Shown one piece after another: positions 11,704 through 47,786 of a stretch of DNA of 64,000 nucleotides (position 1 is its first letter; the number at the start of each line of letters is the position of its first letter). Made by a program: the position numbers and the translations under genes. Source of the DNA: an uncultured Spirochaetales bacterium (GTDB lineage: Bacteria; Spirochaetota; Spirochaetia; Sphaerochaetales; Sphaerochaetaceae); the NCBI GenBank assembly GCA_949293595.1, contig CASFDW010000003.1:72685-136684 (forward strand), written 5' to 3'. A model generated the notes under the pieces. The model was not told the origin of the DNA. It ran no database searches and worked only from the letters and a program-made list of their open reading frames with translations.

Positions 11704-13351
11704 CGCCGTAGATGGAGCCTCCGATGAATTCCCTGAGAAGGGAATCGGATGGAACCAGGCTGGAGTCTATCGGATATACGAAGGAAAGGAAGAACAGGAG
11801 GCGGCGTGCTATCGCATACGCCTCCTTTTCGTTTTTCCCGACGCTCTTCAAAAGAGGCACCGCCTTCGGGGCGAGGACCCCAAGCTCGTAATCCAGAGCG
11901 CTGTTTATCATCACGTCCGCATTGTTCTGATATGGGAATATGTGGTTTTTCTCCCCCCGTTCCACGCTTGGCCATCGGTTGAACGTCTCCACGGCGTCTA
12001 TCCCCCTGGTGCGGTAGTCCCTGACCAGGCGTCTCAGTATCCTGTTGTCCGATGTGCTTATTCTTGAGCAGGAGTCGAGGTTGAGCTGCGTGAGGGCCGA
12101 GATGTACACCCTGTATATCAGTTTCTGGTCGATGCCGGGGACGAGGTCGGGGTTGAGGCCGTGTATTCCCTCTATGACCAGCACCGAATTCTCCTCCATC
12201 CGGAATGCTTCCCGGCTGAACGTTCTTTTCTGTTCCTTGAAGGAGAATGTCGGAAGGTTCACGGGCTTTCCGGCGAGCAGGTCCGCAAGCTGCGACCGGA
12301 AAAGGTCAAGGTTGAGAGCCTCGAGGATCTCGAAATCGAAATCCCCGTTCTCATCCCTTGGAGCTTCGCTCCTTGGCTTGTAGTAGTCATCCAGCGATAT
12401 CTTGATCGGCTTCATGCCCATGACCTTGAGCTCGTCGGAGAGCTTGAGGGAGAAAGTGGTTTTCCCGGATGAGGACGGGCCGGCGATGAATACTACCTTC
12501 ACGTTCCTTCTTCCCGCTATCTCTTCGGATATCCTTGTGATCTTCCTTCGTTGCTGTGCCTCGAGAAGCAGTATCGTCTCCTCTATCCTGTTTTCACTCT
12601 GCCTGTGGTTGAGCTCCCCGAGATTCTCCAGCCCGATAGTGCGCGCGTTCCTCCTGCTTTCCTGGAATACCGAGAAAAGCAGGGGGTTGTCCGTGAATTC
12701 ACGTATCCTGTCGATAGATCTTGTCTGTGGATATCTCAGGAGCAGTCCCCCTTGGTAGCTCCTTAATTCCCATACCGACAACAGATGTGTGTCCGGGAGC
12801 ACAGGTTCCGTGTATAGCTGGTAGTATGTCCCCATGTTAAGGAACCGATACCCGCTCTCGTTCTCCGAGGAAAGCAGTCTTTCGGTCTCGTCGAGCTTGT
12901 GCCTTCGGGCCCATCCGATTGCATCCTCATGCCTGAGAACGACCTCTTCTATCGGGGTTCCGGCACTTATGATGGACGACATCTTCTTTTTCAGCAGCTC
13001 CGGATCGAACCCCTGTCCGTCCCTGTAGTGGAAATAGAATCCGTCCCCAAGGCTATGCCCTATGACAAGGGTGCGTTCCGGGTATGTAAGGAACGAGGTG
13101 TACATGAGCACAAGGGTCAGTGTCTTCCTGTATATCCTCTTGCCCAATGTAGAGAAAAGGCGCACCTCCTCGATTTCCGAGTCTCCTTCGATCCTGGTTC
13201 CGAGCGGACTGAGTATGCCGTTCAAAAGCACGCCGACGACCGGATTGTCGTCGTATCTGCAGTCCCTTCCGAGACCGAGGACGCTTTCAACGCTGTCATG
13301 GAGGGAGCATCTTTTCTCCACTCCGTGTATTCTGACCAGAATTTCGTTCAT
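11696..13351 (-). CDS. Nucleoside (uridine-type) kinase with threonyl-tRNA-synthetase-like N-terminal domains
   Basis: 551 residues. Residues ~1-60 look like a TGS-type ubiquitin-fold domain and ~60-200 like the ThrRS/AlaRS second additional domain (it contains GHSLGDGFYFHY). From ~280 onward is a uridine-kinase P-loop domain: Walker A GPSSSGKTT, then KISLDDYYKPR and EGIHGLNP. Such composite kinases are known from anaerobes, including spirochaetes; they are thought to phosphorylate uridine or related nucleosides for salvage. A -10-like hexamer (TATCAT on the minus strand) ends 7 nt before the ATG and there is no Shine-Dalgarno, suggesting a leaderless mRNA. It is divergent from the oxidoreductase-like gene at 13460. 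Confidence 0.88.
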   Translation of the reverse strand: MNEILVRIHGVEKRCSLHDSVESVLGLGRDCRYDDNPVVGVLLNGILSPLGTRIEGDSEIEEVRLFSTLGKRIYRKTLTLVLMYTSFLTYPERTLVIGHSLGDGFYFHYRDGQGFDPELLKKKMSSIISAGTPIEEVVLRHEDAIGWARRHKLDETERLLSSENESGYRFLNMGTYYQLYTEPVLPDTHLLSVWELRSYQGGLLLRYPQTRSIDRIREFTDNPLLFSVFQESRRNARTIGLENLGELNHRQSENRIEETILLLEAQQRRKITRISEEIAGRRNVKVVFIAGPSSSGKTTFSLKLSDELKVMGMKPIKISLDDYYKPRSEAPRDENGDFDFEILEALNLDLFRSQLADLLAGKPVNLPTFSFKEQKRTFSREAFRMEENSVLVIEGIHGLNPDLVPGIDQKLIYRVYISALTQLNLDSCSRISTSDNRILRRLVRDYRTRGIDAVETFNRWPSVERGEKNHIFPYQNNADVMINSALDYELGVLAPKAVPLLKSVGKNEKEAYAIARRLLFFLSFVYPIDSSLVPSDSLLREFIGGSIYGAI

Positions 13352-13358
13352 GGAATAA

Positions 13359-13364
13359 ATGATA
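13359..13364 (-). promoter_or_regulatory. -10-like element of the nucleoside kinase (leaderless start)
   Basis: The minus strand reads TATCAT followed by 7 nt and then the ATG at 13351. A weak -35 candidate (TTTCAA) lies 17 nt upstream. There is no Shine-Dalgarno between this hexamer and the start, so transcription is predicted to begin at or next to the start codon. Confidence 0.55.
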
Positions 13365-13446
13365 AACCACTTTCCGCCTTATTGAAACAATATGTTAATA
13401 ACAGGGTTTTCATCCATCCCGGATTAATATTTGCCATGATTTGGAT

Positions 13447-13452
13447 TATAAT
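13447..13452 (+). promoter_or_regulatory. -10 element of the AOR-like gene (leaderless start)
   Basis: A perfect consensus TATAAT is followed by 7 nt and then the ATG at 13460. The -35 region is weak (TTAATA at 17-nt spacing). No Shine-Dalgarno is present. Confidence 0.6.
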
Positions 13453-13459
13453 GGCAGAC

Positions 13460-15007
13460 ATGAGCATCCTTTATGTGGACCTTTTCAACAGCAGCATGGA
13501 AAGCGTGGCGGATATGGATGAGACCGGGTTCGATCTGGCCCTTTCCCTTGCCGGAAAGAATCCTGGTTCGATAGTGTTCACGGCGATTCCAGAGGAGGCC
13601 TTCCAGACCAGGGGGGCATCCACCATGACGTTCTGCTTCCATTCCCATCTCACCGGAAGGCTGGAGGCCGGCTTCGCCAGCTCCAAGGTCGGTTTCATCC
13701 TGCGCAATTTCGGATATACTGCAATGGTGGTTGTCGGCAGAGCCCCCCGGCTGTCATACATTTCGTTCCGTGGCGACGGGATTGGCATCGTACAGTGCGA
13801 GAACATGCGTGGCTCAAGTCATGAGGATTTCGCATCCATGGTGAAGAAGCAGGTTGACGACGTTGTCGTCTCCACCGGTGTCGCCGCGGACAACCTGGTC
13901 ATGATCGCAGGACTTTACGAGCGTTCGCGCCAGATATGGCGCGGAGGCTTCGGATATTCGTTCGCGGTACACAATCTCAAGGGGATATGCTTCCAGGGGT
14001 ACATCGGAAAGAGGAACGAGAGCGAGGAGGGCAGGCGGTACATGAGGAAGCTCACATCCTCGCCGTGCTGCAACCAGCTGCGCCGCAGAGGGGCGGTGTC
14101 CTATATCAAGAAAGCATCCGCCGATGGTTACCTTCCCATCGACAATTGGAGCAGACGGAGCGATCCGCGGGCGATATTCCTGGACGGGACATACCTCAAG
14201 GAGAAGTTCGGGCTCTATACCGACACGTGCATGGACTGCTATGTCTCGTGCCTGAGACGGATCAAGGACGGGGGGCTTGCTCCCGATCTCGTTGATTCCA
14301 TGCATCTTGGATCGCTCCTCGGACTGTTTTCATCACTGGATGTGTACGAGATAAAAAAGACGGTTTATGCCCTGGGGCTGGAGGTGGTCGAAACAGGAGC
14401 CATACTCGCAGAAAAGGGGCTGAAAGATCTTTTCGCCATAAAGGCGTATCTTTCCGAGGTGGCCGCAGGAAGGAACTTCGAGGATCTCAGGCTGGGCTTC
14501 CGCATAGGGGGGCTCGCCCCCGTTGTCGATTACAGGGGCTGCAAGGAGGCGGCTTTGTTCGCCATCCTGGGTGAATTGTCTTATCCCATCTATTCCATGT
14601 ATTCTCCCGTAAGGATAGAAAATGACGGGACGGCTGCGGTCCTGGCGGTGTTCGAAAGGGCGTACAATTACGCACTTGCATCCAGAGGTCTTCCGGTGAC
14701 AGGCTTCTATGCCGCCTATGTCGCCACATTGAATCCATTGGTTTTCCGTAGCCCCTCGCTGCTTTTCCATATGCTTTCAAAGGGAAAACGGTTCGGTCTC
14801 GATGCCGTTACGCTTTTGTCGGAAGGGCTTTCGATAATGTCGCGCCTGCCATCGTCCGAGAACCGCATACCGGACCATTTCATCTACGATCTGGACGGTG
14901 GGGACGATGCCGTGAATCCGACAAGGCTGGTGGGCTATTACCGGCATTACCTCTCAAGGCTGGAAAGAAAGCTTCGCAAGCACCCTGGACGAAGGAAAGG
15001 CAAGTAG
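13460..15007 (+). CDS. Aldehyde:ferredoxin oxidoreductase-like protein, short form
   Basis: 515 residues against about 600 for classical AOR. The N-terminal tungstopterin-binding domain is recognisable (HSHLTGRLEAGFASSKVG, then a GYTAMVVVGRA block), with RGGFG and NLKGI as the pterin-region motifs. Three of the [4Fe-4S] ligands are present as TCMDCYVSC (C-x2-C-x3-C). The usual fourth cysteine near the C-terminus is not visible and the C-terminus is short. The start is set at MSILYVDLF, the normal AOR N-terminus; in-frame upstream codons run back through the opposite-strand kinase gene and are not AOR-like. It may oxidise aldehydes with ferredoxin or be a divergent relative. It overlaps the convergent phosphodiesterase gene by 54 nt. 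Confidence 0.75.
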   Translation: MSILYVDLFNSSMESVADMDETGFDLALSLAGKNPGSIVFTAIPEEAFQTRGASTMTFCFHSHLTGRLEAGFASSKVGFILRNFGYTAMVVVGRAPRLSYISFRGDGIGIVQCENMRGSSHEDFASMVKKQVDDVVVSTGVAADNLVMIAGLYERSRQIWRGGFGYSFAVHNLKGICFQGYIGKRNESEEGRRYMRKLTSSPCCNQLRRRGAVSYIKKASADGYLPIDNWSRRSDPRAIFLDGTYLKEKFGLYTDTCMDCYVSCLRRIKDGGLAPDLVDSMHLGSLLGLFSSLDVYEIKKTVYALGLEVVETGAILAEKGLKDLFAIKAYLSEVAAGRNFEDLRLGFRIGGLAPVVDYRGCKEAALFAILGELSYPIYSMYSPVRIENDGTAAVLAVFERAYNYALASRGLPVTGFYAAYVATLNPLVFRSPSLLFHMLSKGKRFGLDAVTLLSEGLSIMSRLPSSENRIPDHFIYDLDGGDDAVNPTRLVGYYRHYLSRLERKLRKHPGRRKGK

Positions 15008-37702: not shown

Positions 37703-38554
37703 ATGCGGATGTTCGGTGTTTGTTTGAACAAGGGTGTTGCCGTGCTGTTGATCGTTCTGACGCTCTGGTCCTGCACGATGGATATTTCCGGTCCGTCCTC
37801 AATGGGCGACAGGATCCTTCTGGAGAGGTCCGCAAGGGTGATCGGGCTTTATCTGGATGACATAAGGTCGGTTCTGACCGAGGAGGAGCTGCCGGGCTTC
37901 GAGGAGGCTGTTGCACGGGGATTCTCATCTTCGGATGTTGCTGCCAGGACGCTTGACGAGGAGAACGGACGTGGTTATCTGGAGTTCATTCTTTATGCTG
38001 ATGATTATGACAATGTCGACGAGGTGCTTTCAGCAGGGGAGGCATTGATAGACGATCCTGCACTGCTCGATCAGGTGAGGGCCGACGTGATGGAGCTTGA
38101 ACAGAGGATGGAGGAGGAGGCGGAATCGGCATCCAGGGCATTGACCGGAAAGGAGAAGAAGGAGTTCTACGCCCATCTGAGGAAGCTTGTGGTTAAAGCA
38201 GCCGTTCTGCTTACTGCCGCCATCGTGTATGCCTGTGTACCGAAACTCATGTTCTGGGGCAAGATAAGCGCTGCTGCGGCCATCGCCGTTGCCGCCGGCG
38301 TGCTGGCCACGACGATAATGAGCATAATCGAGTTCTACCATACGGAGGAGGGAGGTGCGAAGGTTAGTTTCGATGAATGGCTGGCGGATGTTGTCAAGGA
38401 ACCTGCCGCGGCATGGGCGGTCGCAAGCGGGATGATAAGCACCAACATTGCGCTGGGGTATTCCCCGATCGTGACTGCCCTGATAATAGGAGTGTTCGCC
38501 ATCTATAACATCGTTGACGATGTGAAGGCCATGCAGAAGTATGGAAAAAAATGA
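37703..38554 (+). CDS. Lipoprotein of unknown function with C-terminal hydrophobic helices
   Basis: 283 residues. Lipoprotein signal with Cys24 (LTLWSC). The next ~130 residues are acidic and helical (MELEQRMEEEAESASRAL). After ~160 there are three hydrophobic stretches (AAVLLTAAIVYACV, AAAAIAVAAGVLATTIM, IVTALIIGVFAIYNIV), so the protein may sit in the inner membrane despite its lipobox. No family recognised. AAGGAGG lies 6 nt before the ATG at 37703; an in-frame GTG-type start at 37661 lies inside the previous gene and is rejected. A terminator follows. Confidence 0.65.
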   Translation: MRMFGVCLNKGVAVLLIVLTLWSCTMDISGPSSMGDRILLERSARVIGLYLDDIRSVLTEEELPGFEEAVARGFSSSDVAARTLDEENGRGYLEFILYADDYDNVDEVLSAGEALIDDPALLDQVRADVMELEQRMEEEAESASRALTGKEKKEFYAHLRKLVVKAAVLLTAAIVYACVPKLMFWGKISAAAAIAVAAGVLATTIMSIIEFYHTEEGGAKVSFDEWLADVVKEPAAAWAVASGMISTNIALGYSPIVTALIIGVFAIYNIVDDVKAMQKYGKK

Positions 38555-38560
38555 TTAATT

Positions 38561-38591
38561 GCTGTGGAGGATATTTCTCCACGGCTTTTTT
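38561..38591 (+). terminator. Rho-independent terminator; left edge of the AT-rich island
   Basis: Stem GCTGTGGAG / CTCCACGGC with one G-T pair and a 7-nt loop, followed by six Ts. Base composition changes sharply just after it. Confidence 0.88.
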
Positions 38592-38687
38592 AAGGAAAAA
38601 AAGATATATGTAAGACTTATTTTATTTGATGTGTTGTAAATTCCTTTTTTTTTATCTCGTATAGAAAAAAGTGATTTTTAAAAAAAG

Positions 38688-38716
38688 TTGACAGAATAAA
38701 AAAAAGGAAATACGAT
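38688..38716 (+). promoter_or_regulatory. Promoter of the GntR-family regulator
   Basis: A perfect TTGACA and TACGAT with a 17-nt spacer. Predicted start near 38723, only a few bases before the palindromic operator. Confidence 0.75.
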
Positions 38717-38731
38717 TAAAGAAAATAAGGA

Positions 38732-38748
38732 TTGTATACAATATACAA
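38732..38748 (+). promoter_or_regulatory. Operator 1: perfect palindrome in the regulator leader
   Basis: TTGTATA-CAA-TATACAA, a perfect 7-3-7 inverted repeat, identical to the one before dctP. Its position just after the promoter fits autorepression. The TTGTATACAA part resembles FadR-subfamily sites (T.GT...AC.A). Confidence 0.8.
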
Positions 38749-38762
38749 AAAAAGGAAGCTAC

Positions 38763-39440
38763 ATGGGCAAAACATTGGGGGTCATCAATCAGAAACTGGT
38801 TACAACTGCTACAGTTGATCAAATTCGCAGTGCAATTGAGTCTGGAGAGTTGGTACCTGGACAGAGAGTCAGTGAGCAAGATTTGACTTCGCAGTTTCAA
38901 GTAAGTCGAACTCCTGTACGTGAAGCTTTCAGAATATTAGAAGCAGAAGGATATTTGGTTCATTCGCCACGGTGTGGGGTAGTTGTTAAGGAATTAAATT
39001 ATCAGGAAATAATTGATGTTTTTGAGGTCCGGTCATGGCTTGAACAATTGATGGTAAGGAAAATCACCAATGAAATTGATTCAGCAAAAATGAGGGCATT
39101 AGAAAGTCTATATGTGGAAATGAAAAGTAGTATAGATGATATTGAAGAACAAACATTCCAAAATCTTGATAATAAGTTCCATGAAATACTTGTATCATTC
39201 TGCACTAATTTAAAATTGGTTGAGTTGATTAGAAGCCTGAAAAATAGTACTAAGCTTGTCAGGAAGAAAGCAGGTTTTTCAAAAGAGAGAGCGCAAGAAT
39301 CATTTAACGAGTGTATGTCGATTATAGAAGCAATAAAGTTGAATAATGGTGATTTATGTGCAGAAAGGATGAGAGAGCATTTTGAGAAAAGTCTGAAATT
39401 CTTTGTAAGCCGGATAGATAATTTAAGTAGTCGCAGATAG
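38763..39440 (+). CDS. GntR-family regulator, FadR/FCD subfamily
   Basis: 225 residues. An N-terminal winged helix (IRSAIESGELVPGQRVSEQDLT, then FQVSRTPVREAFRILEAEGYLV) is the GntR signature. The C-terminal all-helical FCD domain contains NLDNKFHEIL and MREHFEKSL, supplying Asp and His residues that in this family bind a metal and a small carboxylic acid. It should repress the TRAP operon and itself through the two identical palindromes and release DNA when its ligand, probably the transported compound or a breakdown product, is present. AAGGAAG lies before the ATG. Codon use is AT-rich like the rest of the island. Confidence 0.92.
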   Translation: MGKTLGVINQKLVTTATVDQIRSAIESGELVPGQRVSEQDLTSQFQVSRTPVREAFRILEAEGYLVHSPRCGVVVKELNYQEIIDVFEVRSWLEQLMVRKITNEIDSAKMRALESLYVEMKSSIDDIEEQTFQNLDNKFHEILVSFCTNLKLVELIRSLKNSTKLVRKKAGFSKERAQESFNECMSIIEAIKLNNGDLCAERMREHFEKSLKFFVSRIDNLSSRR

Positions 39441-39484
39441 TGTTTTTTTAGGGGAGAAATGTAAGGAGAAAAAAACGACATATA

Positions 39485-39501
39485 TTGTATACAATATACA
39501 A
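39485..39501 (+). promoter_or_regulatory. Operator 2: perfect palindrome upstream of dctP
   Basis: The same TTGTATA-CAA-TATACAA sequence as at 38732-38748, placed 34 nt before the dctP start. A promoter probably overlaps it, but I cannot identify -35 and -10 boxes with confidence. Confidence 0.8.
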
Positions 39502-39535
39502 TATTCGAGAATAAAAACAAAAAAGGAGAGTTTTT

Positions 39536-40555
39536 ATGAGGAAAACATTGGTTATTATGTTTTTGGTTATCTTTGGGTGTGCTGTTGTTTTTGCAAACGG
39601 TTCGTCAGAAGTCGCGACTGATTCATCCGGGTATCAGGTTGGCAAGTATAAACTTAATGTTGATCATGGGCATACAGAGTCTAGTGTGACACATGAAGCA
39701 TGTTTGAGATGGGCGGATGCTGTTCGTGAACGTACTCATGGAGAGGTTGAAATAACTGTTTACCATAGTTTCCAACTGGGTACGGCAGATGATTTGCTCG
39801 TGCAGATCATGCAGGGCGGAAACACGGGGTATCTTGCTGACCCTGGTAGGTTGGGGAATTACGTCAAAGACATTGGTGTGTTGAATGCTCCTTATGTAAT
39901 CGATAGTTATGATGAGATTCTTCAGTTTGAAGAAACAGATCTTTGTGCAGAATGGGAAAAGGAACTGATTGAATCGAATGATATGCATGTGCTTTCGTGG
40001 AATTATGGACAGGGCTTCAGAAGTTGTTTTGTAAATAAGAAATGCACTACTCCCAAGGAGTTCAGAGGTGTTAATTTCAGATCTCCTGAATCACCTGTTT
40101 GGTATGCGGTTTGTGAAGCTTTGGGAACGACTCCTGTAGCCATGGCATATGGTGAAACATACTCTGGCATTCAGACAAAACTTGTGGACGGATGTGAGCA
40201 GAACATCGGTTCTGTATATGATAATGCACTTTATGAAGTTGCTCCGTATTTTATTGAAACACGCCATGTTTATCTTTCAAATGCGATGGTTGTGAGTGAA
40301 ACATGGTTCCAGACACTTCCTGATGAATATAAGGAGATTGTGACGGAAGAGTGCTATAACGCTGGAATTTATTTTACAGAAAAACTGGCGGAGAGCGAAG
40401 CTGATCAGATTGCCGACATGGTTAGCAAGGGAACAACTTGGATAAAGTTTGAAGATCTTGATATCGATGCTTTCAAGGCAAATTCCGAACCTTTCTTCAC
40501 AAAGATGGATATGGTTGAAGCAAGAGAAAAGCTTTTGGATGCTCTTGGAAAGTAG
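39536..40555 (+). CDS. dctP: TRAP transporter substrate-binding protein (DctP family)
   Basis: 339 residues with a signal peptide (MRKTLVIMFLVIFGCAVVFA); the Cys15 context is not a standard lipobox. The mature part follows DctP: an N-terminal lobe (YKLNVDHGHTESSVTHEACLRWADAV), FQLGTADDLLVQIMQGG, and the substrate-arginine region FRGVNFRSPESPVW, where TRAP receptors bind a carboxylate. It captures an organic acid in the periplasm for DctQM. GGAGAG precedes the ATG. A stable hairpin follows the stop codon, which may raise the amount of this subunit relative to the membrane parts. Confidence 0.93.
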   Translation: MRKTLVIMFLVIFGCAVVFANGSSEVATDSSGYQVGKYKLNVDHGHTESSVTHEACLRWADAVRERTHGEVEITVYHSFQLGTADDLLVQIMQGGNTGYLADPGRLGNYVKDIGVLNAPYVIDSYDEILQFEETDLCAEWEKELIESNDMHVLSWNYGQGFRSCFVNKKCTTPKEFRGVNFRSPESPVWYAVCEALGTTPVAMAYGETYSGIQTKLVDGCEQNIGSVYDNALYEVAPYFIETRHVYLSNAMVVSETWFQTLPDEYKEIVTEECYNAGIYFTEKLAESEADQIADMVSKGTTWIKFEDLDIDAFKANSEPFFTKMDMVEAREKLLDALGK

Positions 40556-40569
40556 TAATTGATTTTTAA

Positions 40570-40591
40570 GGCAGGTACTTTGGTGCCTGCC
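40570..40591 (+). promoter_or_regulatory. Intercistronic hairpin between dctP and dctQ
   Basis: A 9-bp stem GGCAGGTAC / GTGCCTGCC with a 4-nt loop and no T-tract. It is placed as in many transporter operons, where it protects the receptor mRNA or causes partial termination. The rest of the 154-nt gap has a second small hairpin (GGATG-TTTTTT-CATCC, 40625-40640) and no gene. Confidence 0.65.
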
Positions 40592-40709
40592 AGAATTATT
40601 CGGATAACGAAAAGTAATGTGTTGGGATGTTTTTTCATCCTAACGGTTTTTATGACCTACGGTTAAAAAGTTTTTTTATTCGGAACCGCGAGAGAATGGA
40701 GTTTCATTT

Positions 40710-41180
40710 ATGAAAAAAGTTTTTAATTTCATTGATAAATTTGAGAAAGTATTTATCTCCATTTGCCTTGCAGCTTGTGTTGTAACATTGTTTGTGAATG
40801 CCTTGCTGAGGCACTTGGGATACCCTTTAAGATTTGCAAATGATCTGGCTCTTGCCTTCTTCTCCTATACAACCTTTTTAGGGGTGGATTTGGCATATAG
40901 AAACAACAAACTTGCTACAGTTGAGTTATTTTCACATTTACTTTCCCCAAGAGGGAAAAAAATACATCAAATTGCTGTTTTGGTTTTGAACCTTGGTCTC
41001 TTCATATTAATGGCTTACCTTGGTATCCAGCTTCTGCAGCGTTCCTGGAAAAGGCCGATTCCTTCATTGCCCAATATCAGTTATGGATGGGTGATGATGT
41101 CTGTGCCTATTGGTGCTTTTCTGATGATTCTGACTTCATTGGAAAAAATATATTCGGTTTTGACAAGGAAGGAGGATTAA
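40710..41180 (+). CDS. dctQ: TRAP transporter small permease (DctQ family)
   Basis: 156 residues with four hydrophobic segments (about 14-33, 48-64, 88-108 and 128-148), the DctQ layout. NALLRHLGYPLRFANDLALAFFSYTTFLGVDLAYR is the typical N..LR......W..E.A.....W..FLG...A.R family block, with some substitutions. It partners DctM in the sodium-driven uptake complex. GGAG lies before the ATG. DctM begins 4 nt after its stop codon. Confidence 0.9.
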   Translation: MKKVFNFIDKFEKVFISICLAACVVTLFVNALLRHLGYPLRFANDLALAFFSYTTFLGVDLAYRNNKLATVELFSHLLSPRGKKIHQIAVLVLNLGLFILMAYLGIQLLQRSWKRPIPSLPNISYGWVMMSVPIGAFLMILTSLEKIYSVLTRKED

Positions 41181-41184
41181 AAGC

Positions 41185-42465
41185 ATGCTTTGGGTGTTCA
41201 TCGTTTTTCTTGTTTTACTGTTTTTGGGAGTGCCAGTTGCAATTTCATGCGGTATTGCAGGTGTCGTTTATTTCATCATCAACGACAGCATGATTTTCAA
41301 TCAGGTGATTTCGTTAACATTTTCTGCAACACAAAGTGTTTCTCTTTTGGCGATACCGATGTTCATTCTGGCTGGAAACCTTATGAATGCTTGTGGAATA
41401 ACACATCGGTTGCTAGGTTTTTGCGGCATGCTGACCAGAAGGATGCATGGCGGCATGGCCCAGACGAGCGTCTTGCTTTCTACTTTCATGGGCGGAGTTT
41501 CCGGATCTTCTGTCGCCGATTGTGCAATGGAAAGCCGTATTCTCGGGCCGAACATGATCAAAAACGGATATTCAAGGGGATATACAGGTGTAGTAATAGG
41601 GTATACGTCGTTGATTACATCGACGATACCTCCTGGAAATAATTTAATATTATATGGAACCTCTGGTGAAGTATCGATAGGAAGATTGTTTACTGCTGGC
41701 TTGTCAGCTGGTCTTCTGATGATGGTTGTTCTGATGGTTATTGTTGCCATCACTTCACATAGGAGAAACTATAAACCAACAAGTATCAGCCGTGTGACCT
41801 TTCATGAATTAGGTAATGGAATCATGGAGAACATTTGGGCACTGATTTTCCCAATCATATTGCTTGTGGGCATACGACTTGGTTGGTTTGCCGCATCAGA
41901 AGTAGGAGCTTTTGCTTGTGTGTATGCATTACTGTGTGGAGTGTTTGCTTACCGGGAACTTGACTGGAAAACATTCTGTGAAGTCCTTTGGAATTCTGTT
42001 ATTGACATTTCTGCTATTGTTTTCCTTATTGCTCTTACCGGTCCGTTTGGCTATGGGGTGGCAATAGATCATTTACCTCAGATCCTTACTTCATGGATGC
42101 TCAATATTACGACAAATCCGTTTATCATCCTCATGATAATAATAGTTGTACTTCTTATCATGGGATGTTTCATGGAGGGAGGCGCTGTAATACTTATTTT
42201 AACGCCGATTTTACTTCCAATTGTAGAAAGTGTGGGTGTTGATCCCGTGTTTTTCGGAATTGTAATAGCAACCACTTGTGTCATCGGTATACTTACTCCT
42301 CCGGTGGGTTTGGGAATGTATATTGTTACGAATATTTTGGAAATCCCGCTTAAGGAGTGGGTTAGAGAAAGTGCTCCTTTCTTTGTAGCGATATGCCTTT
42401 ACATGATATTGATTGTCGCTTTCCCGAATTTGGTAATGTGGTTGCCAACTCTTGTTTACGCATAA
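41185..42465 (+). CDS. dctM: TRAP transporter large permease (DctM family)
   Basis: 426 residues, about twelve hydrophobic segments. Family marks include LFLGVPVAISCGIAGVVY at the N-terminus, LLAIPMFILAGNLMNACGI, GGVSGSSVADCAMES, STIPPGNNLILYG and the C-terminal TPPVGLGMYIVTNI. This is the ion-coupled transport subunit. AAGGAGG precedes the ATG. With dctP and dctQ it makes a complete TRAP system for a carboxylate or sulfonate; the substrate is not deducible from the permease. Confidence 0.95.
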   Translation: MLWVFIVFLVLLFLGVPVAISCGIAGVVYFIINDSMIFNQVISLTFSATQSVSLLAIPMFILAGNLMNACGITHRLLGFCGMLTRRMHGGMAQTSVLLSTFMGGVSGSSVADCAMESRILGPNMIKNGYSRGYTGVVIGYTSLITSTIPPGNNLILYGTSGEVSIGRLFTAGLSAGLLMMVVLMVIVAITSHRRNYKPTSISRVTFHELGNGIMENIWALIFPIILLVGIRLGWFAASEVGAFACVYALLCGVFAYRELDWKTFCEVLWNSVIDISAIVFLIALTGPFGYGVAIDHLPQILTSWMLNITTNPFIILMIIIVVLLIMGCFMEGGAVILILTPILLPIVESVGVDPVFFGIVIATTCVIGILTPPVGLGMYIVTNILEIPLKEWVRESAPFFVAICLYMILIVAFPNLVMWLPTLVYA

Positions 42466-42483
42466 GAATAAGGAGAATGTGAT

Positions 42484-43392
42484 ATGTTGAGTCAGTACAA
42501 TATAGATACCAGGATAATTCTTCATATCGGAGATCCGATGGATCAGGGATGTTCGCATATGGTACATAATTATTTGTATGAATATGCGAATTTGAATGCA
42601 ATCACCATTCCTGTCAAAGTAGGGATGGCTGAACTGGAAGGGGCGATAGCAGGAGCCAGGGCTTTCGGCTTGGATTTTACTCTTACCATGCCATTGAAAA
42701 GTGCAATAATCGATTATCTTGATGAAGTTGATGATTTGAGCAGGGACTTTCGCTGTGTGAATAATGTGAAATTCGTTGATGGCAAACTCATTGGTACAGG
42801 GTTGGACGGCGTTGGAATGGGGGCTGCCATCAGGCACAGGCTGGGTCAAAGGATGGATGGCCGGCATGCGTTGATTCTTGGTGCGGGTGCTGTTGCAGGA
42901 CCCATTGCCGCCGCAATCGTCGAGCGGGGTGTGACGAAGGTTGTTATTGCTAATCGCACGGTTGAAAAAGCAGAATATATCGCCAATGTGTTGAGAAAGT
43001 ATTTTCCTGCGCTGGAAGTTGAGTTCGGTCCTCTCTCAGATGAGTTTCTGAAAGAAAAAGCCTACGATTCCAATCTCGTTGTCCAGTGCACATCCATGGG
43101 TGGAGGTACATGGAAGGCTTTTGAACCACTTGGGTTCATGCAGAATCTTCCGAAAGATTGTTTCGTCGCTGATGTCCTGTACCCTGTCACAACCGTATTG
43201 TCGGAAGCTGAACGGCTTGGTCTGGAAACATTGAATGGGCAGGAGATGATACTTCATCAGCAGCTCGCCACAATGGAATTCAGGTTTGGGGTTAAGTTGC
43301 CGGAAGACGAGGCTTTGCTTGTCGCCGAGGAAGCTTTGGATATGTCTGTGGCAAAACGTGCTTTTCGCAATAGATACAAGAAAGATAAGTAG
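42484..43392 (+). CDS. Shikimate/quinate dehydrogenase-like NAD(P) oxidoreductase
   Basis: 302 residues with the AroE fold. Catalytic Lys72 is in LTMPLKSAI (family VT.P.K) and Asp108 in GTGLDGVGM (family NTDG.G, Asn and Thr lost). The nucleotide loop is LGAGAVAGPIAAAI, followed by VIANRT. The substrate-binding SxS motif of true shikimate dehydrogenases is replaced (GDPMDQGCSHMVHN), so the substrate is probably not shikimate. AAGGAG lies before the ATG. No other aromatic-pathway gene is near; it belongs to the TRAP operon and probably oxidises or reduces the imported compound. Confidence 0.85.
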   Translation: MLSQYNIDTRIILHIGDPMDQGCSHMVHNYLYEYANLNAITIPVKVGMAELEGAIAGARAFGLDFTLTMPLKSAIIDYLDEVDDLSRDFRCVNNVKFVDGKLIGTGLDGVGMGAAIRHRLGQRMDGRHALILGAGAVAGPIAAAIVERGVTKVVIANRTVEKAEYIANVLRKYFPALEVEFGPLSDEFLKEKAYDSNLVVQCTSMGGGTWKAFEPLGFMQNLPKDCFVADVLYPVTTVLSEAERLGLETLNGQEMILHQQLATMEFRFGVKLPEDEALLVAEEALDMSVAKRAFRNRYKKDK

Positions 43393-43398
43393 GGAAAT

Positions 43399-44265
43399 AT
43401 GAAGGAAAATAGTCTGAGAAGGTCGTTGCTTTTTGTACCTGCGGATTCTGAACGGTTCATCGCAAAGGCGGAGTCAACATGTGATTTGGATGGAGTTATC
43501 CTTGATTTGGAGGATGGGGTGAACATTCTTAAGAAGGATGTTGCCAGGAATGGTGTTCCCGAAGCTGTGTCAAGATTGAAAAAAAGCGGTAAGGAAGTTT
43601 TCGTCCGGATAAACGATTTGGCGTCTTTACGGGGGGTGAATGATTTATTGTATGTTGCCGGTTCCGGACTGGACGGTGTGCTGATTCCCAAAGCAGATAA
43701 GGACGTCGTTATTCTCTGCAATCTGCTTTTGAATGCATATGAGATTGAGAATGATGTTGCAAAGGGTACGATCCGCATCCTGGTGATGATTGAAACGGCA
43801 GTTGCATTGGAAGAAATCGATTTGATTCTGAAATCCTCGGAAAGGATTGATGGTGTTGTGTTTGGAGCTGAGGACTATACCAATGATATCAGCGTATCAA
43901 AAGAGGATGCAGCTGTATTGCTTGATTATGCCAGGGCAAAAATTGTTAATTCTGCGAAAGCCAATGATGTGCAGGCAATAGATTCCCCTTGCACAGACTA
44001 TAAGAACGCAGAAGTTTATACGAAAGAGATTGTTGCGGCAAAACGACTTGGCTTCAGCGGGAAAACAACAATACATCCATCCATTGTCGAAACAATCAAT
44101 AAAGAGTTCTCACTTAGTGAGGAGAAACGATCCTATCTTGAAAGGATGATTTCGGCATTTGATCAGGCAAGTAAGGATGGGATTGGTGCCATTTCATTTG
44201 AAGGAAGTATGGTTGATAAACCCATTGTTGATCGAGCACGTAAGCTTATTCGTTGTTATAAATGA
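43399..44265 (+). CDS. CitE-like HpcH/HpaI-family lyase
   Basis: 288 residues, a TIM-barrel lyase of the citrate-lyase-beta/malyl-CoA-lyase group. RRSLLFVPADSERF, LDGVILDLEDGV (metal-binding Asp/Glu region), VFVRIND, VMIETAVALEEID and KTTIHPSIVETIN mark it. Relatives cleave or form beta-hydroxyacyl-CoA thioesters, releasing acetyl-CoA and an oxo acid or aldehyde. No citrate lyase alpha or gamma subunits are nearby, so it acts alone. A short GGGA ribosome site follows the previous gene after 6 nt. In this operon it could split a CoA ester derived from the imported acid. Confidence 0.87.
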   Translation: MKENSLRRSLLFVPADSERFIAKAESTCDLDGVILDLEDGVNILKKDVARNGVPEAVSRLKKSGKEVFVRINDLASLRGVNDLLYVAGSGLDGVLIPKADKDVVILCNLLLNAYEIENDVAKGTIRILVMIETAVALEEIDLILKSSERIDGVVFGAEDYTNDISVSKEDAAVLLDYARAKIVNSAKANDVQAIDSPCTDYKNAEVYTKEIVAAKRLGFSGKTTIHPSIVETINKEFSLSEEKRSYLERMISAFDQASKDGIGAISFEGSMVDKPIVDRARKLIRCYK

Positions 44266-44293
44266 AATTATTTAAATAAGGAGAGTAATATCT

Positions 44294-45715
44294 ATGAAGG
44301 AAGAGCTTGATTTTACCTTACCTGAAAGCAAGGAAATTGCTGAACTGATAGTCAGGGCTAGAAAGGCACAAGAAAAAATTGCGAATATTACCCAGGATGA
44401 GGCACGGTATATTGCAAAAGCCATTGGATGGTATGCGGATTATCGCGCCGAAGAATGGGCAAAAGTGAATTTTGAAGAAACCCAGATGGGCGATGTTCAA
44501 AGCAAGGTTGCCAGGACAAGGACACGTGCCCGTGGGGTGATACGCGATTTGAATAATACGAAAACCGTTGGCGTGATTGAGGAAGATGTGGAAAAAAATC
44601 TCATTAAAATTGCCAAGCCTGTTGGAGTAATCGGTGCGTTGGTTCCAGTGACGGTTCCAGCAGGTGTCGTATTCATAAAGGCTATGAATGGACTGATGGG
44701 CCGCAATGCATTGATTTATGCACCACATCCGAGAGCGAAGAAGACCACGATGATGGTTGTAAATGAATTGAGAGCGTTGCTTGGCCGGCTGGGATATCCG
44801 GAGGATTTGCTTCTTTGCATTGATAATGTCAACAAGGAGAAGACCAGTCAGCTGATGAAACAGTGTGATCTTATCATAGCAACCGGTGGTTCCGGGATGG
44901 TGAAGGCTGCATATTCCTCCGGTACTCCGGCTTATGGAGTGGGGGCAGGGAATGTTGTTTGTGTCATAGATGAGACTGCAGACCTCAAGGATGCTGCCTT
45001 TAAGATAATGGACAGCCAAATGAATGATTTGGCCAGTGGCTGCTCCACGGAAAATTCCGTAGTTATCCAAAGTGGTGTGTATGATCAGGCGATTGATGAA
45101 ATGAAAAAGCAATTTGCCCATTTATGCACAAAAGAAGAGAAGAAGAAACTGCAGGACACATTGTGGCATGATGGGAAACTGAATAGTGCTGTCATATGCA
45201 AACCAGCTACCGTGATTGCCAAAGCAGCAGGATTCGAAGTTGCTCCGGACACCCGCTGGATTTTGGTGGAGGAAACTGGATATGGCAAGGATTTCCCATT
45301 CTCCGGAGAAAAGCTTTCGGTTGTTGTTACTGTCTACAAGTATGATAGTTTCGATGAGGCGATCAAGCTGGTGAACGGAATACAGAGTTATTCGGGAGCC
45401 GGGCATTCATGTGGAATTCACAGCTCAAATGAAGAGCATATCATGAAGTTTGCAAATGAAACGAAGACCGCAAGAGTCGCAGTTTGCATGTCTCAGAATA
45501 AATCCAATGCTGGAAACTGGAATAATGGTATGCCTTTTACGATCACGTTGGGTTGTGGTACGTGGGGAGGAAACATCACCTGCGAGAACATCACAGCAAA
45601 GCACTATATCAACACCACGTGGGTTGCCAGGGAAATAAAAGGATATACAGTTCCGACCGATAGCGAACTTTTCGGTTCAGAAATAATGAATGATTCTCGC
45701 ATCAGAGCGAAATAG
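44294..45715 (+). CDS. Acylating (CoA-dependent) aldehyde dehydrogenase
   Basis: 473 residues of the AdhE/EutE-type aldehyde dehydrogenase group. Catalytic Cys250 is in LASGCSTENSVV, and the C-terminal GCGTWGGNITCENITAKHYINTTW block is the AdhE/sulfoacetaldehyde-dehydrogenase style signature. It should convert an aldehyde plus CoA and NAD(P)+ into an acyl-CoA. There is no alcohol-dehydrogenase domain. AAGGAGAG precedes the ATG. In the operon it is well placed to use an aldehyde released by one of the two aldolase-type enzymes. Acetaldehyde, succinic semialdehyde, methylmalonate semialdehyde or sulfoacetaldehyde are all possible substrates. Confidence 0.88.
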   Translation: MKEELDFTLPESKEIAELIVRARKAQEKIANITQDEARYIAKAIGWYADYRAEEWAKVNFEETQMGDVQSKVARTRTRARGVIRDLNNTKTVGVIEEDVEKNLIKIAKPVGVIGALVPVTVPAGVVFIKAMNGLMGRNALIYAPHPRAKKTTMMVVNELRALLGRLGYPEDLLLCIDNVNKEKTSQLMKQCDLIIATGGSGMVKAAYSSGTPAYGVGAGNVVCVIDETADLKDAAFKIMDSQMNDLASGCSTENSVVIQSGVYDQAIDEMKKQFAHLCTKEEKKKLQDTLWHDGKLNSAVICKPATVIAKAAGFEVAPDTRWILVEETGYGKDFPFSGEKLSVVVTVYKYDSFDEAIKLVNGIQSYSGAGHSCGIHSSNEEHIMKFANETKTARVAVCMSQNKSNAGNWNNGMPFTITLGCGTWGGNITCENITAKHYINTTWVAREIKGYTVPTDSELFGSEIMNDSRIRAK

Positions 45716-45729
45716 TGAAGGAAGAAAAT

Positions 45730-47109
45730 ATGAAACAGTGGGATATTAATTGGAATATGTATCGCTCGAAGATTGTGTTTGCAGATAATGCCGCCTCATT
45801 TTTATCTGAGATAGAAGAATTAGTTGCCAATGCGGAACATATGCAGTCGGGTGGAGAAGGGAAGTATGCATTGGAATTGTTATCCGAACTGCTGATCGAT
45901 TTGAATTCCATGCTTACGAGATGGACATTGGACAAGAATGTCGGATTAGAAACAAAAAGAGAAGGTGATTGCAAAATCAGGTCTGCCATCCTCAGTATGG
46001 GCGGGGAGGGATATTTGGCTTATGCTGACAAGGAGATCGATTCAATCAAGAAGTCTCAGTTCGGTCGGATTGCCGATGCGACAGATAAGGGAAGGATGTA
46101 TACGTATTGGGGAAATGATTTGTGTACCGGTGTCGATTTTTCATTGAGAAGAGGAGCTTCGTTCACCACTAGTAATCCTTCAAAGATTAATCTTTTCAGA
46201 AAGGCTGAACCAGAGCAGTATGGGATATATCTTAAAGAGGTTTTGGAGGAGCACAAAGATATCAGCAAAGAACAGCTCTTGTCATATTTGACAGTCAAGG
46301 TTGTTTCTCAAGTGGCTCGTAAGTTGATTCCAATCAATAAAGCAACAAATGGAAAATTCGGGGTTTCGTTCACGCAGGTTGATCCATCAACTTGGAATAA
46401 TGCAAAGGCAATGGTTGATGAAGTGAGGCTATGGTATTCAGAATTCCAAAAAGAAATGTGTTGTGAGAGGCCAAATGTTGTCTTTAAGGTTCCTGCAACA
46501 CCTGCAGCAAAGGAAGCCGCCAAGGAATTGTTGAAAGATGACTACATACGGCTTACATTCACATCCAATTTTGCCGTTGGACAACATAAGCAGTTCCTTG
46601 AATTGATTAATAAACGCCAGCCAAATTGTTTCTTGGTTCTTGTTGATTGTCATTTGCGTAAGTTCGCAAAGCCGGAGTTTGAATCTTTAGGGATAACCGA
46701 TACCGACTATTATTGTGAGAAACTGGTGAGTGCTGTATATCAGAAGTGTTATCAGCAGTTGTTGGATTGTGGTTCTGATGCAATGGTTAATGGTGCAGGA
46801 TTGAGGGAAGAGGTAGGCATACAGTTATGCCTCACAGACAAAAATGATCATCCAACCACGTTTACTGTCACTCCTTCTTTGGTTGCAGATTATGATAGCA
46901 AAGAGCGCTGTCAGGAAATTATATGGGATAAAACCATATCAGAGGCTGATTTTGATGTCTTAAATAAGTCGAGCGTATTCCGTAGGGCATATTATGCTGA
47001 TGAGTTTCCATGGGATGACATACAGAGCTTTGAACCTTATGCATTTATGATGGAAGGGTTTATGACAGCCAGACAGGAATGTCTTGATACTATTTCTGAT
47101 TATCAGTGA
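45730..47109 (+). CDS. Long transaldolase-like (class I aldolase) protein
   Basis: 459 residues, much longer than ordinary transaldolase (~220-320). After ~140 residues with no recognised motif it shows TTSNPSKIN (~146-154, like TTNPS in transaldolases), then FTQVDPSTWNN, and NVVFKVPATPAAKEAAKEL with the presumed Schiff-base Lys at ~253, followed by LTFTSNFAVGQ. The later VNGAGLREEVGIQL and FTVTPSLVADY have no counterpart I know. It is probably a Schiff-base aldolase or transaldolase for a specialised substrate. ATG at 45730 with AAGGAAG upstream is favoured over a GTG at 45715 that overlaps the previous stop. Confidence 0.75.
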   Translation: MKQWDINWNMYRSKIVFADNAASFLSEIEELVANAEHMQSGGEGKYALELLSELLIDLNSMLTRWTLDKNVGLETKREGDCKIRSAILSMGGEGYLAYADKEIDSIKKSQFGRIADATDKGRMYTYWGNDLCTGVDFSLRRGASFTTSNPSKINLFRKAEPEQYGIYLKEVLEEHKDISKEQLLSYLTVKVVSQVARKLIPINKATNGKFGVSFTQVDPSTWNNAKAMVDEVRLWYSEFQKEMCCERPNVVFKVPATPAAKEAAKELLKDDYIRLTFTSNFAVGQHKQFLELINKRQPNCFLVLVDCHLRKFAKPEFESLGITDTDYYCEKLVSAVYQKCYQQLLDCGSDAMVNGAGLREEVGIQLCLTDKNDHPTTFTVTPSLVADYDSKERCQEIIWDKTISEADFDVLNKSSVFRRAYYADEFPWDDIQSFEPYAFMMEGFMTARQECLDTISDYQ

Positions 47110-47117
47110 GGAACAGT

Positions 47118-47663
47118 ATGAACCAAAAAGAATATATGGATTCGATTCTTCCTGGGTGCCGCATAGGGCAGATTGGTTTTTTTACGAAAGACATTTTTTC
47201 TGCAATGCGGGAATGGGATGTCAGAATGGGGGTGAAGAATTGGATTCTTTACGAACATACTGATGAACGATTGCAGAATGTTGTTGTCAAGGAAGGGGTA
47301 TGTGATAAAAATTTTAGGTTTTATTGCGCATGTGGCAATCTGAATGATGGAATTCAGTTGGAACTCATCCAGCCAATATTTGGATTACCATTTTACGAGA
47401 ATTACCTAAAAACGCACGGAGAAGGTGCCCATCATATCAAGGAGATTGTTCCTGCAAGTCGTTATGAGGAGGTATTGAAATATTATGAGGACAATGGAAT
47501 GCATGTGATTTTTGGTGCAGAGTATTTTGGATCCAAATTCTATTTCATTGATTCCATTTCCAAGCTTGGAGTTTTGTTGGAGATTGGAAATGGGTGTTCT
47601 CCAAATGGTGCACCTGAAGATTGGAAAGCACCTTATCCAGAATGTTTGAGGAGGTTTAAATAG
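47118..47663 (+). CDS. VOC-superfamily (glyoxalase/epimerase-like) protein
   Basis: 181 residues. Two beta-alpha-beta-beta-beta modules of the vicinal-oxygen-chelate fold: RIGQIGFFTKDIFSAMREW and, after LELIQPIFG, GAHHIKEIVPASRYEEVLKYYEDNGM, ending in LGVLLEIG. Candidate metal ligands are His (GAHHI) and Glu residues in the ELIQP and LLEIG strands. Methylmalonyl-CoA epimerase, glyoxalase I and hydroxyphenylpyruvate-type enzymes share this fold. As last gene of the operon it could epimerise an acyl-CoA or isomerise an intermediate. GTGAGGA lies 5 nt before ATG 47118; a longer in-frame start at 47106 overlaps the previous stop. Confidence 0.8.
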   Translation: MNQKEYMDSILPGCRIGQIGFFTKDIFSAMREWDVRMGVKNWILYEHTDERLQNVVVKEGVCDKNFRFYCACGNLNDGIQLELIQPIFGLPFYENYLKTHGEGAHHIKEIVPASRYEEVLKYYEDNGMHVIFGAEYFGSKFYFIDSISKLGVLLEIGNGCSPNGAPEDWKAPYPECLRRFK

Positions 47664-47672
47664 TTTTTAATT

Positions 47673-47704
47673 GGGACTATTGTGATAATGTTCGCAATAG
47701 TCCC
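47673..47704 (+). terminator. Terminator hairpin at the end of the TRAP operon
   Basis: A 10-bp perfect stem GGGACTATTG / CAATAGTCCC with a 12-nt loop. The following TGATTGATAATATC has few Ts, so it may be a weak terminator or an mRNA-stabilising end. It marks the right edge of the AT-rich island. Confidence 0.75.
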
Positions 47705-47786
47705 TGATTGATAATATCATTTAAAGTTTGTATTAAATTGAATAATTGACATGGTTTGCTCCTTCCATAGAACGCAAACTACCAAC

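Follow-up and report, generated by a model that had tools for sequence, protein, structure and literature searches.

Introduction

Operons that combine a tripartite ATP-independent periplasmic (TRAP) transporter with an iron alcohol dehydrogenase, an aldehyde dehydrogenase (ALDH) and a 3-hydroxy-3-methylglutaryl-CoA (HMG-CoA) lyase occur in Ponticoccus, Shinella, Salipiger and Szabonella, and we take them to serve, probably, the catabolism of mevalonate. A second relevant group of enzymes, the CitE-type lyases, cleave 3-hydroxyacyl-CoAs that bear a carboxylate on the hydroxyl carbon. Among the classical substrates of the AroE fold is quinate, a plant acid that is set free from chlorogenic acid; its catabolic dehydrogenases usually depend on NAD. 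The fermentation of hydroaromatic acids was reportedly described in physiological terms by Brune and Schink in the 1990s; we know of no pathway for it, and searches of open-access papers found no text on hydroaromatic fermentation enzymes. Here we describe an operon in a 64,000-nucleotide window (contig C3:72685-136684) of the genome of an uncultured Spirochaetales bacterium (2.08 Mb, 14 contigs). Its nine plus-strand genes (38763-47663 of the window) encode a GntR/FCD regulator, the TRAP proteins DctP, DctQ and DctM, an AroE-like dehydrogenase, a CitE-like lyase, a CoA-acylating ALDH, a long transaldolase-like protein (TAL) and a VOC-superfamily protein. On balance we favour a scheme in which the front-end enzymes produce an aldehyde, the ALDH turns it into a CoA thioester, and cleavage by the CitE-like lyase yields acetyl-CoA and a product of the type R-CO-COOH.

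The aldehyde dehydrogenase and the CitE-like lyase form a conserved core

An alignment of the ALDH was scanned against 84,980 species genomes and yielded 80 loci; the sample was picked by similarity to the window ALDH and says little about ALDHs beyond the pattern matches. Identity is 63-68% for the best five loci and then falls to 56%. All five, from a member of the Rhodospirillales (L034), a Bacilli metagenome-assembled genome (MAG; L035), Rhodoplanes (L036), Evansella halocellulosilytica (L037) and a congener of the window organism (L038, an uncultured Spirochaetaceae MAG; the same locus as in genome G001), have CitE as the gene that immediately precedes the ALDH gene, together with adjoining TRAP genes, which in the Bacilli MAG lie downstream of the ALDH at the contig end. 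A sixth CitE-ALDH locus (L126) was found in another congener, G014. Taking all ALDHs found with at least 61% identity, CitE is directly upstream in seven of seven (window included; one of them comes from a genome represented twice); the distance is 8-58 bp and TRAP genes adjoin in every case (six other genomes, three phyla). None of the roughly 80 ALDHs with at most 56% identity has CitE within 9 kb, as far as the flanking sequence reached (about 95 loci compared).

In a maximum likelihood tree, the seven CitE-linked ALDHs form one clade (support 100/100), which is sister (94/92) to the ALDHs linked to HMG-CoA lyase; SauPQ-linked ALDHs stand apart. Tree and gene context together thus indicate that this ALDH branch is associated with lyases that cleave carbon-carbon bonds of acyl-CoAs. 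The window carries the complete module: CitE immediately precedes the ALDH gene, TRAP genes adjoin, and the ALDH belongs to the CitE-linked clade. The perfect co-occurrence within a single clade supports a joint function of ALDH and CitE, the reaction of which would be that expected from the two families. The window ALDH is 61-68% identical to the other module ALDHs (62-84% among themselves), and the window CitE 35-40% identical to the other module CitEs (40-63% among themselves); a conserved ALDH beside a diverged CitE is what a constant aldehyde end and a variable R would lead one to expect.

The ETA, GAED and MVD motifs of the CitE-like protein align with those of CLYBL and of the other module CitEs; they comprise the metal and catalytic acidic residues. 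The protein scores 172.7 bits against the citrate lyase beta model TIGR01588, for which 443 is the threshold, and neither CitD nor CitF is encoded in the operon. A search of 198 genomes returned no CitE relative at E 1e-45.

A zinc alcohol dehydrogenase (Zn-ADH) gene precedes CitE in the Rhodospirillales and Rhodoplanes loci; Evansella combines a Zn-ADH with a glycerate kinase (TIGR00045) and a 2-hydroxyacid dehydrogenase; both congeners have a split transketolase; and AroE-like, TAL-like and VOC genes stand beside the core in the window only. Any of these front ends is in principle able to generate an aldehyde when supplied with an imported hydroxy acid or ketose acid. An earlier note on this DNA had grouped the five enzymes of the operon into one set. 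Conservation of the five as a set was not supported, as only TRAP, CitE and ALDH recur; the full gene set was seen nowhere else in the genomes searched, and searches of open-access papers, a limited test, found no published operon of the same composition.

In Evansella, the operon (L037:3666-12454) comprises glycerate kinase, TRAP, Zn-ADH, CitE, ALDH and 2-hydroxyacid dehydrogenase genes. The additional genes would be in keeping with a CitE product such as hydroxypyruvate or glyoxylate, and we infer that a xyloisosaccharinate-type substrate, degraded via hydroxypyruvate, would fit. In the two congeners, LacI, split transketolase, TRAP, CitE and ALDH genes share one locus (L126:1895-10104; L038:3336-11422), a second acid-catabolic operon.

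The best NCBIfam model for the window ALDH is that of SauS, the acylating sulfoacetaldehyde dehydrogenase (NF047625, 492.2 bits). The operon might on these grounds be read as a sulfonate operon with the sulfonate imported by the TRAP system; TRAP transporters are known to import isethionate and similar sulfonates, and structure 8t9t is among the DctP matches. The score, however, stays below the curated cut-off of 600, tree and gene context group the ALDH with the carbon-carbon-lyase-linked and outside the SauPQ/Xsc-linked enzymes, no Xsc or SauPQ relative lies nearby, and no sulfite-handling family is present in the operon. Furthermore, the SauS model is not specific, because it is passed with 604.6 bits by an ALDH within a myo-inositol cluster (L042:9992-11368), for which the NCBIfam name sulfoacetaldehyde dehydrogenase is probably a misnaming. 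Given the missed cut-off, the unspecific model and the tree position, we rejected the sulfonate reading and consider it extremely improbable.

A proposed reaction order for the operon

Pfam detected no CoA ligase or transferase among the operon products, which leaves the ALDH as the only source of the thioester for CitE; the substrate rule of CitE-type lyases in turn implies that the aldehyde should be OHC-CH2-C(OH)(R)-COOH. In the proposed order, the TRAP transporter would import a polyhydroxy acid and the AroE-like enzyme, to judge from its family and its Lys/Asp dyad, would oxidise a secondary alcohol to a ketone. The VOC protein might then, if needed, epimerise or isomerise the hydroxyketone, which is the least certain step. 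By way of a Schiff base on Lys253, TAL would perform a retro-aldol cleavage of the alpha/beta-dihydroxyketone to give the above aldehyde, the ALDH would form its CoA thioester, and the CitE-like lyase would release acetyl-CoA and R-CO-COOH. The earlier note had likewise envisaged an imported acid, AroE-like oxidation, aldol-type cleavage to an aldehyde and ALDH-dependent formation of an acyl-CoA, an interpretation that our analysis supports, but it had left open which lyase makes the aldehyde. As CitE and ALDH are a fixed pair by conservation, TAL should be the aldehyde-maker, and the CoA thioester should be cleaved by CitE in the final step.

TAL has the PF00923 barrel and Schiff-base lysine of the transaldolase/fructose-6-phosphate aldolase (FSA) fold. 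Residues 105-459 of its structure model match transaldolases (VIA Z 28.3, 310 residues, root-mean-square deviation (r.m.s.d.) 3.0) and are preceded by an N-terminal extension of about 105 residues, which is helical and modelled with low confidence. Lys253, Asn149, an FSA-like Gln216 and the Asp in WGND are kept in the alignment. The phosphate-binding VGR of TalB (TalB Arg181) is replaced by DCHLRK in an alignment at about 20% identity, of which we are only moderately sure; loss of this motif suggests that the TAL substrate may be unphosphorylated. Close relatives of TAL were found neither in genome-contig, viral-contig or plasmid collections nor in 135 genomes of family f24, and the 393 genomes of the phylum yielded only two relatives, of about 570 amino acids and about 30% identity, in unrelated operons. 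These two (L017:9067-10785, minus strand; L018:9019-10722, plus strand) lie in spirochaete operons with short-chain dehydrogenases/reductases, Zn-ADH and, in one of them, TRAP genes, the neighbours being judged by eye.

In about eight loci, some of which are myo-inositol clusters, a TAL of ordinary length lies close to an ALDH of this family. L040 and L042 hold the TAL gene within such a cluster; in L040, IolD, IolE and IolG score above their NCBIfam cut-offs and the IolB match falls below its own. TAL is next to ALDH in L061, L117, L119, L122, L123 and L120/L143, and a carboxyltransferase follows the pair in L061 and L143. On the simplest reading, these pairs would convert 2-deoxy-5-keto-gluconate by retro-aldol cleavage into malonate semialdehyde and dihydroxyacetone, followed by malonyl-CoA formation and decarboxylation; an inositol branch via malonate semialdehyde and malonyl-CoA is possible in anaerobes. 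Such pairs support a role of TAL as aldehyde-maker for an acylating ALDH.

The AroE-like protein keeps the catalytic Lys/Asp dyad and the substrate-site Thr, Tyr and Gln in the alignment, and scores 127.9 bits against the AroE equivalog TIGR00507 (cut-off 200.2). A separate AroE is encoded elsewhere in the genome as an AroD-AroE fusion, so that the operon protein is a paralogue. Its best relatives in the phylum (L020-L024) were rejected; they look like ordinary biosynthetic AroE, some adjoining aromatic-pathway genes. Matches on Priestia plasmids were also rejected, being located beside aroQ.

By fold, the VOC protein most resembles 3gm5 and methylmalonyl-CoA epimerases, which supports the epimerase role that the earlier note had given it. 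The match is one of fold only, with 15 bits (E 0.027) against 115 for the methylmalonyl-CoA epimerase model TIGR03081. Gln18, Glu82, His106 and Glu155, invariant among nine relatives, are a candidate set of metal ligands. In genus g107, a VOC relative, possibly a sugar epimerase, is found in operons (L133, L136) whose other genes, judged by eye, look like a ROK kinase, a SIS-type isomerase and a sugar ABC transporter.

All of these enzymes are reversible in principle. The operon could therefore run backwards, with CitE joining acetyl-CoA and a 2-oxo acid, the ALDH reducing the product to an aldehyde and TAL condensing it, in an assembly or electron-sink route, and the NRT motif of the AroE-like protein fits NADPH-dependent reduction (PMC7752791). 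The presence of an import transporter, and of operators for a GntR/FCD regulator, speaks instead for catabolism, and synthesis from acetyl-CoA would cost a fermenter energy; we regard the reverse direction as very unlikely.

Candidate substrates

For the catabolic scheme, we infer the substrate throughout, and tentatively propose quinate, via 3-dehydroquinate, as the best fit, without thinking it probable. Quinate contains the CH(OH)-CH2-C(OH)(COOH) element that the scheme needs. From the IUPAC names, and by hand rather than by computation, 3-dehydroquinate is the (1R,3R,4S)-1,3,4-trihydroxy-5-oxo compound, with the alpha carbon S and the beta carbon R; as the priority order is the same as in fructose C3 (S)/C4 (R), its C3-C4 bond has the D-threo arrangement that is cut by transaldolase and FSA. 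A retro-aldol reaction would open the ring to OHC-CH2-C(OH)(COOH)-CH2-CO-CH2OH, and ALDH and CitE would then give acetyl-CoA and 5-hydroxy-2,4-dioxopentanoate, which is hydrolysable to pyruvate and glycolate by fumarylacetoacetate hydrolase (FAH)-type enzymes. So read, the operon would be a non-aromatic, oxygen-independent route for quinate (and for shikimate, via dehydroquinate dehydratase) that proceeds from the AroE-like oxidation through ring opening by TAL and CoA-acylation to a citramalyl-type cleavage; we hold this route to be somewhat more doubtful still.

Several observations weigh against the scheme or against quinate in particular. AroE, TAL and VOC were not found together in other genomes searched, so the front end comes from one genome and lacks comparative support, and the TAL structure model is of low confidence (mean pLDDT 64). 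An enzyme for the next step on R-CO-COOH is absent from the operon, and the genome encodes a single FAH-type hydrolase, at an unlinked site. In the AroE-like pocket, SxS is changed to GxS (first Ser to Gly), NT to NN and NTD to GLD, with the loss of one carboxylate serine. Thr381Gly suffices for quinate dehydrogenase activity in plants and Ser338Gly improves it (PMC7752791); the AroE-like protein has neither substitution and keeps the Thr and the second Ser. The NRT cofactor motif predicts NADP (PMC7752791), and suggests this cofactor for the AroE-like enzyme, in contrast to the NAD dependence usual in quinate catabolism. Lastly, relatives of the VOC protein lie, by eye, near apparent sugar kinases and isomerases, and this may speak for a linear sugar acid as the substrate.

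The same scheme would indeed accommodate a linear deoxy sugar acid of the 3-deoxy-heptonate or saccharinate type. The AroE-like and VOC proteins would form a ketose, TAL would split it into dihydroxyacetone and malate semialdehyde, and ALDH and CitE would yield, via malyl-CoA, acetyl-CoA and glyoxylate. Relatives of the long TAL as well as of VOC occur within apparent sugar or sugar-acid operons, the glycerate kinase and 2-hydroxyacid dehydrogenase that adjoin the Evansella module suit a small 2-oxo acid product, 5-ketofructose reductase, a sugar enzyme of the AroE fold, is among the PDB matches, and the SxS change weakens the case for a shikimate-type substrate. On the other hand, AroE relatives act mostly on shikimate or quinate, the window operon lacks both a glycerate kinase and a 2-hydroxyacid dehydrogenase, and its CitE is unlike the other module CitEs. 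A deoxy sugar acid is thus possible but rather unlikely. Glucoisosaccharinate was rejected on paper, as its retro-aldol cleavage would need no ALDH.

Gene layout and the inserted island

Every Pfam match of the nine gene products is above the gathering score: GntR and FCD, DctP, DctQ, DctM, Shikimate_dh_N/Shikimate_DH, HpcH_HpaI, Aldedh, TAL_FSA and Glyoxalase_4. The gaps from dctQ to the VOC gene measure 4-28 bp; that between dctP and dctQ is 154 bp and contains a terminator-like hairpin. The two operators match each other, and the 64-kb window contains no further copy of the motif at up to two mismatches (0.01 expected by chance). The gene set, order, single strand, regulator and operators of the earlier note were thus borne out, and its borders (38592-47704) each fall within about 75 bp of those of the island. 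The start codons of the TAL and VOC genes, judged by eye, are probably ATG 45730 and ATG 47118. No RNA element exceeds the Rfam thresholds.

Table 1. Features of the operon and its island (window coordinates).
Feature	Position	Strand	Evidence
Inserted island	38553..47776		9,224 bp; the corresponding site of two sister species, G024 and G003, lacks it (blastn of window vs L174/L175); GC drop
Operator 1, ATTGTATACAATATAC, 5' of regulator gene	38731..38746	+	Pattern search, 0 mismatches, chance expectation 0.01
GntR/FCD-family transcriptional regulator	38763..39440	+	PF00392, PF07729
Operator 2, palindromic copy of ATTGTATACAATATAC motif, 5' of dctP	39480..39499		Pattern search
DctP, TRAP solute-binding protein	39536..40555	+	PF03480, 210 bits; nearest solved structure 2hpg, E 2e-58
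Terminator-like hairpin, dctP/dctQ gap (possible partial terminator)	40620..40645	+	Pattern only; 9 found vs 7.3 expected in shuffles
DctQ, TRAP small permease	40710..41180	+	PF04290
DctM, TRAP large permease	41185..42465	+	PF06808; TIGR00786 above cut-off
AroE-like NAD(P)-dependent dehydrogenase	42484..43392	+	PF08501/PF01488 above gathering; under every AroE equivalog cut-off
CitE-like acyl-CoA C-C lyase	43399..44265	+	PF03328, 142 bits vs gathering 25; best PDB match human CLYBL 5vxc
CoA-acylating ALDH, Cys in SGCSTEN	44294..45715	+	In clade of CitE-linked ALDHs, 100/100; SauS model 492 bits vs cut-off 600
Long transaldolase-like protein (TAL)	45730..47109	+	PF00923; alignment; structure model
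VOC-superfamily protein, epimerase-like	47118..47663	+	PF13669; model match 3gm5, Z 15.1, r.m.s.d. 2.8, and methylmalonyl-CoA epimerases
Hairpin closing the operon, GGGACTATTG.../CAATAGTCCC	47673..47704	+	13-nt arms, 92% complementary; no T-run, hence not in terminator scan

The GC content drops from 51-57% to 37-45% across the operon, and GC at third codon positions is 0.31-0.47 in all nine operon genes vs 0.60-0.68 in the flanking genes. In G024 and G003, the genes that flank the island are adjacent; in G024, window position 38552 corresponds to L174 2933 and 47777 to L174 2932 (blastn), so that the island consists of the operon and nothing else. Its base composition makes gain more likely than loss. 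A donor was not found, and the 47 congeners searched hold no close TAL relative. Taken jointly with the whole proposed scheme, we lean slightly towards a horizontally acquired, self-regulated catabolic operon in a gut-type spirochaete. Elsewhere in the window, the aldehyde:ferredoxin oxidoreductase domains of a 702-amino-acid open reading frame (12899-15007, plus strand) are incomplete (PF02730 from residue 225; the first third of PF01314).

Comparison with known systems

The scheme offers a coherent reaction order for a gene set without prior assignment. Acylating ALDH and CitE-like lyase make up a portable unit for splitting acids, to which different front ends can be coupled and which is poorly named by current models, the nearest names being SauS, citrate lyase beta and shikimate dehydrogenase. 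If the substrate is quinate, the operon would explain how gut or sediment anaerobes use this acid without aromatising it, and an old puzzle of physiology would become open to direct tests; if this is true, genes could be named for the fermentative breakdown of hydroaromatic acids.

Like the HMG-CoA lyase operons, the ALDHs of which are 46-48% identical and form the sister clade, the window operon would lead from an alcohol acid through an aldehyde and a 3-hydroxyacyl-CoA to acetyl-CoA and a keto product; unlike it, they possess a DRE-TIM HMG-CoA lyase and an iron alcohol dehydrogenase in place of CitE and of AroE, TAL and VOC. With the CitE, ALDH and TRAP operons of Evansella, Rhodoplanes, the Rhodospirillales and Bacilli MAGs and the two congeners it shares the common core (ALDH 61-68% identical), but those have a Zn-ADH or split transketolase front end, with glycerate kinase in Evansella, and only distantly similar CitEs (35-40%). 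In the myo-inositol clusters, as in Petroclostridium and Acidaminobacter, TAL likewise accompanies an acylating ALDH from this family, but that TAL is of normal length and accompanied by Iol enzymes, and CitE and TRAP are missing. SauS belongs to the same ALDH branch, SauPQ-linked ALDHs being 40-43% identical, whereas the window ALDH scores under the SauS cut-off and lies outside the SauPQ-linked clade. The AroE-like protein shares with AroE, YdiB and plant quinate dehydrogenase the fold, the Lys/Asp dyad and the substrate-site Thr, Tyr and Gln, but differs from them by an identity of only about 21-30% and by the GxS and GLD replacements of SxS and NTD. Taken together, the enzyme families and the logic of coupling an ALDH to a lyase are already known, and the combination and its transaldolase-type front end are, as far as these searches reach, new.

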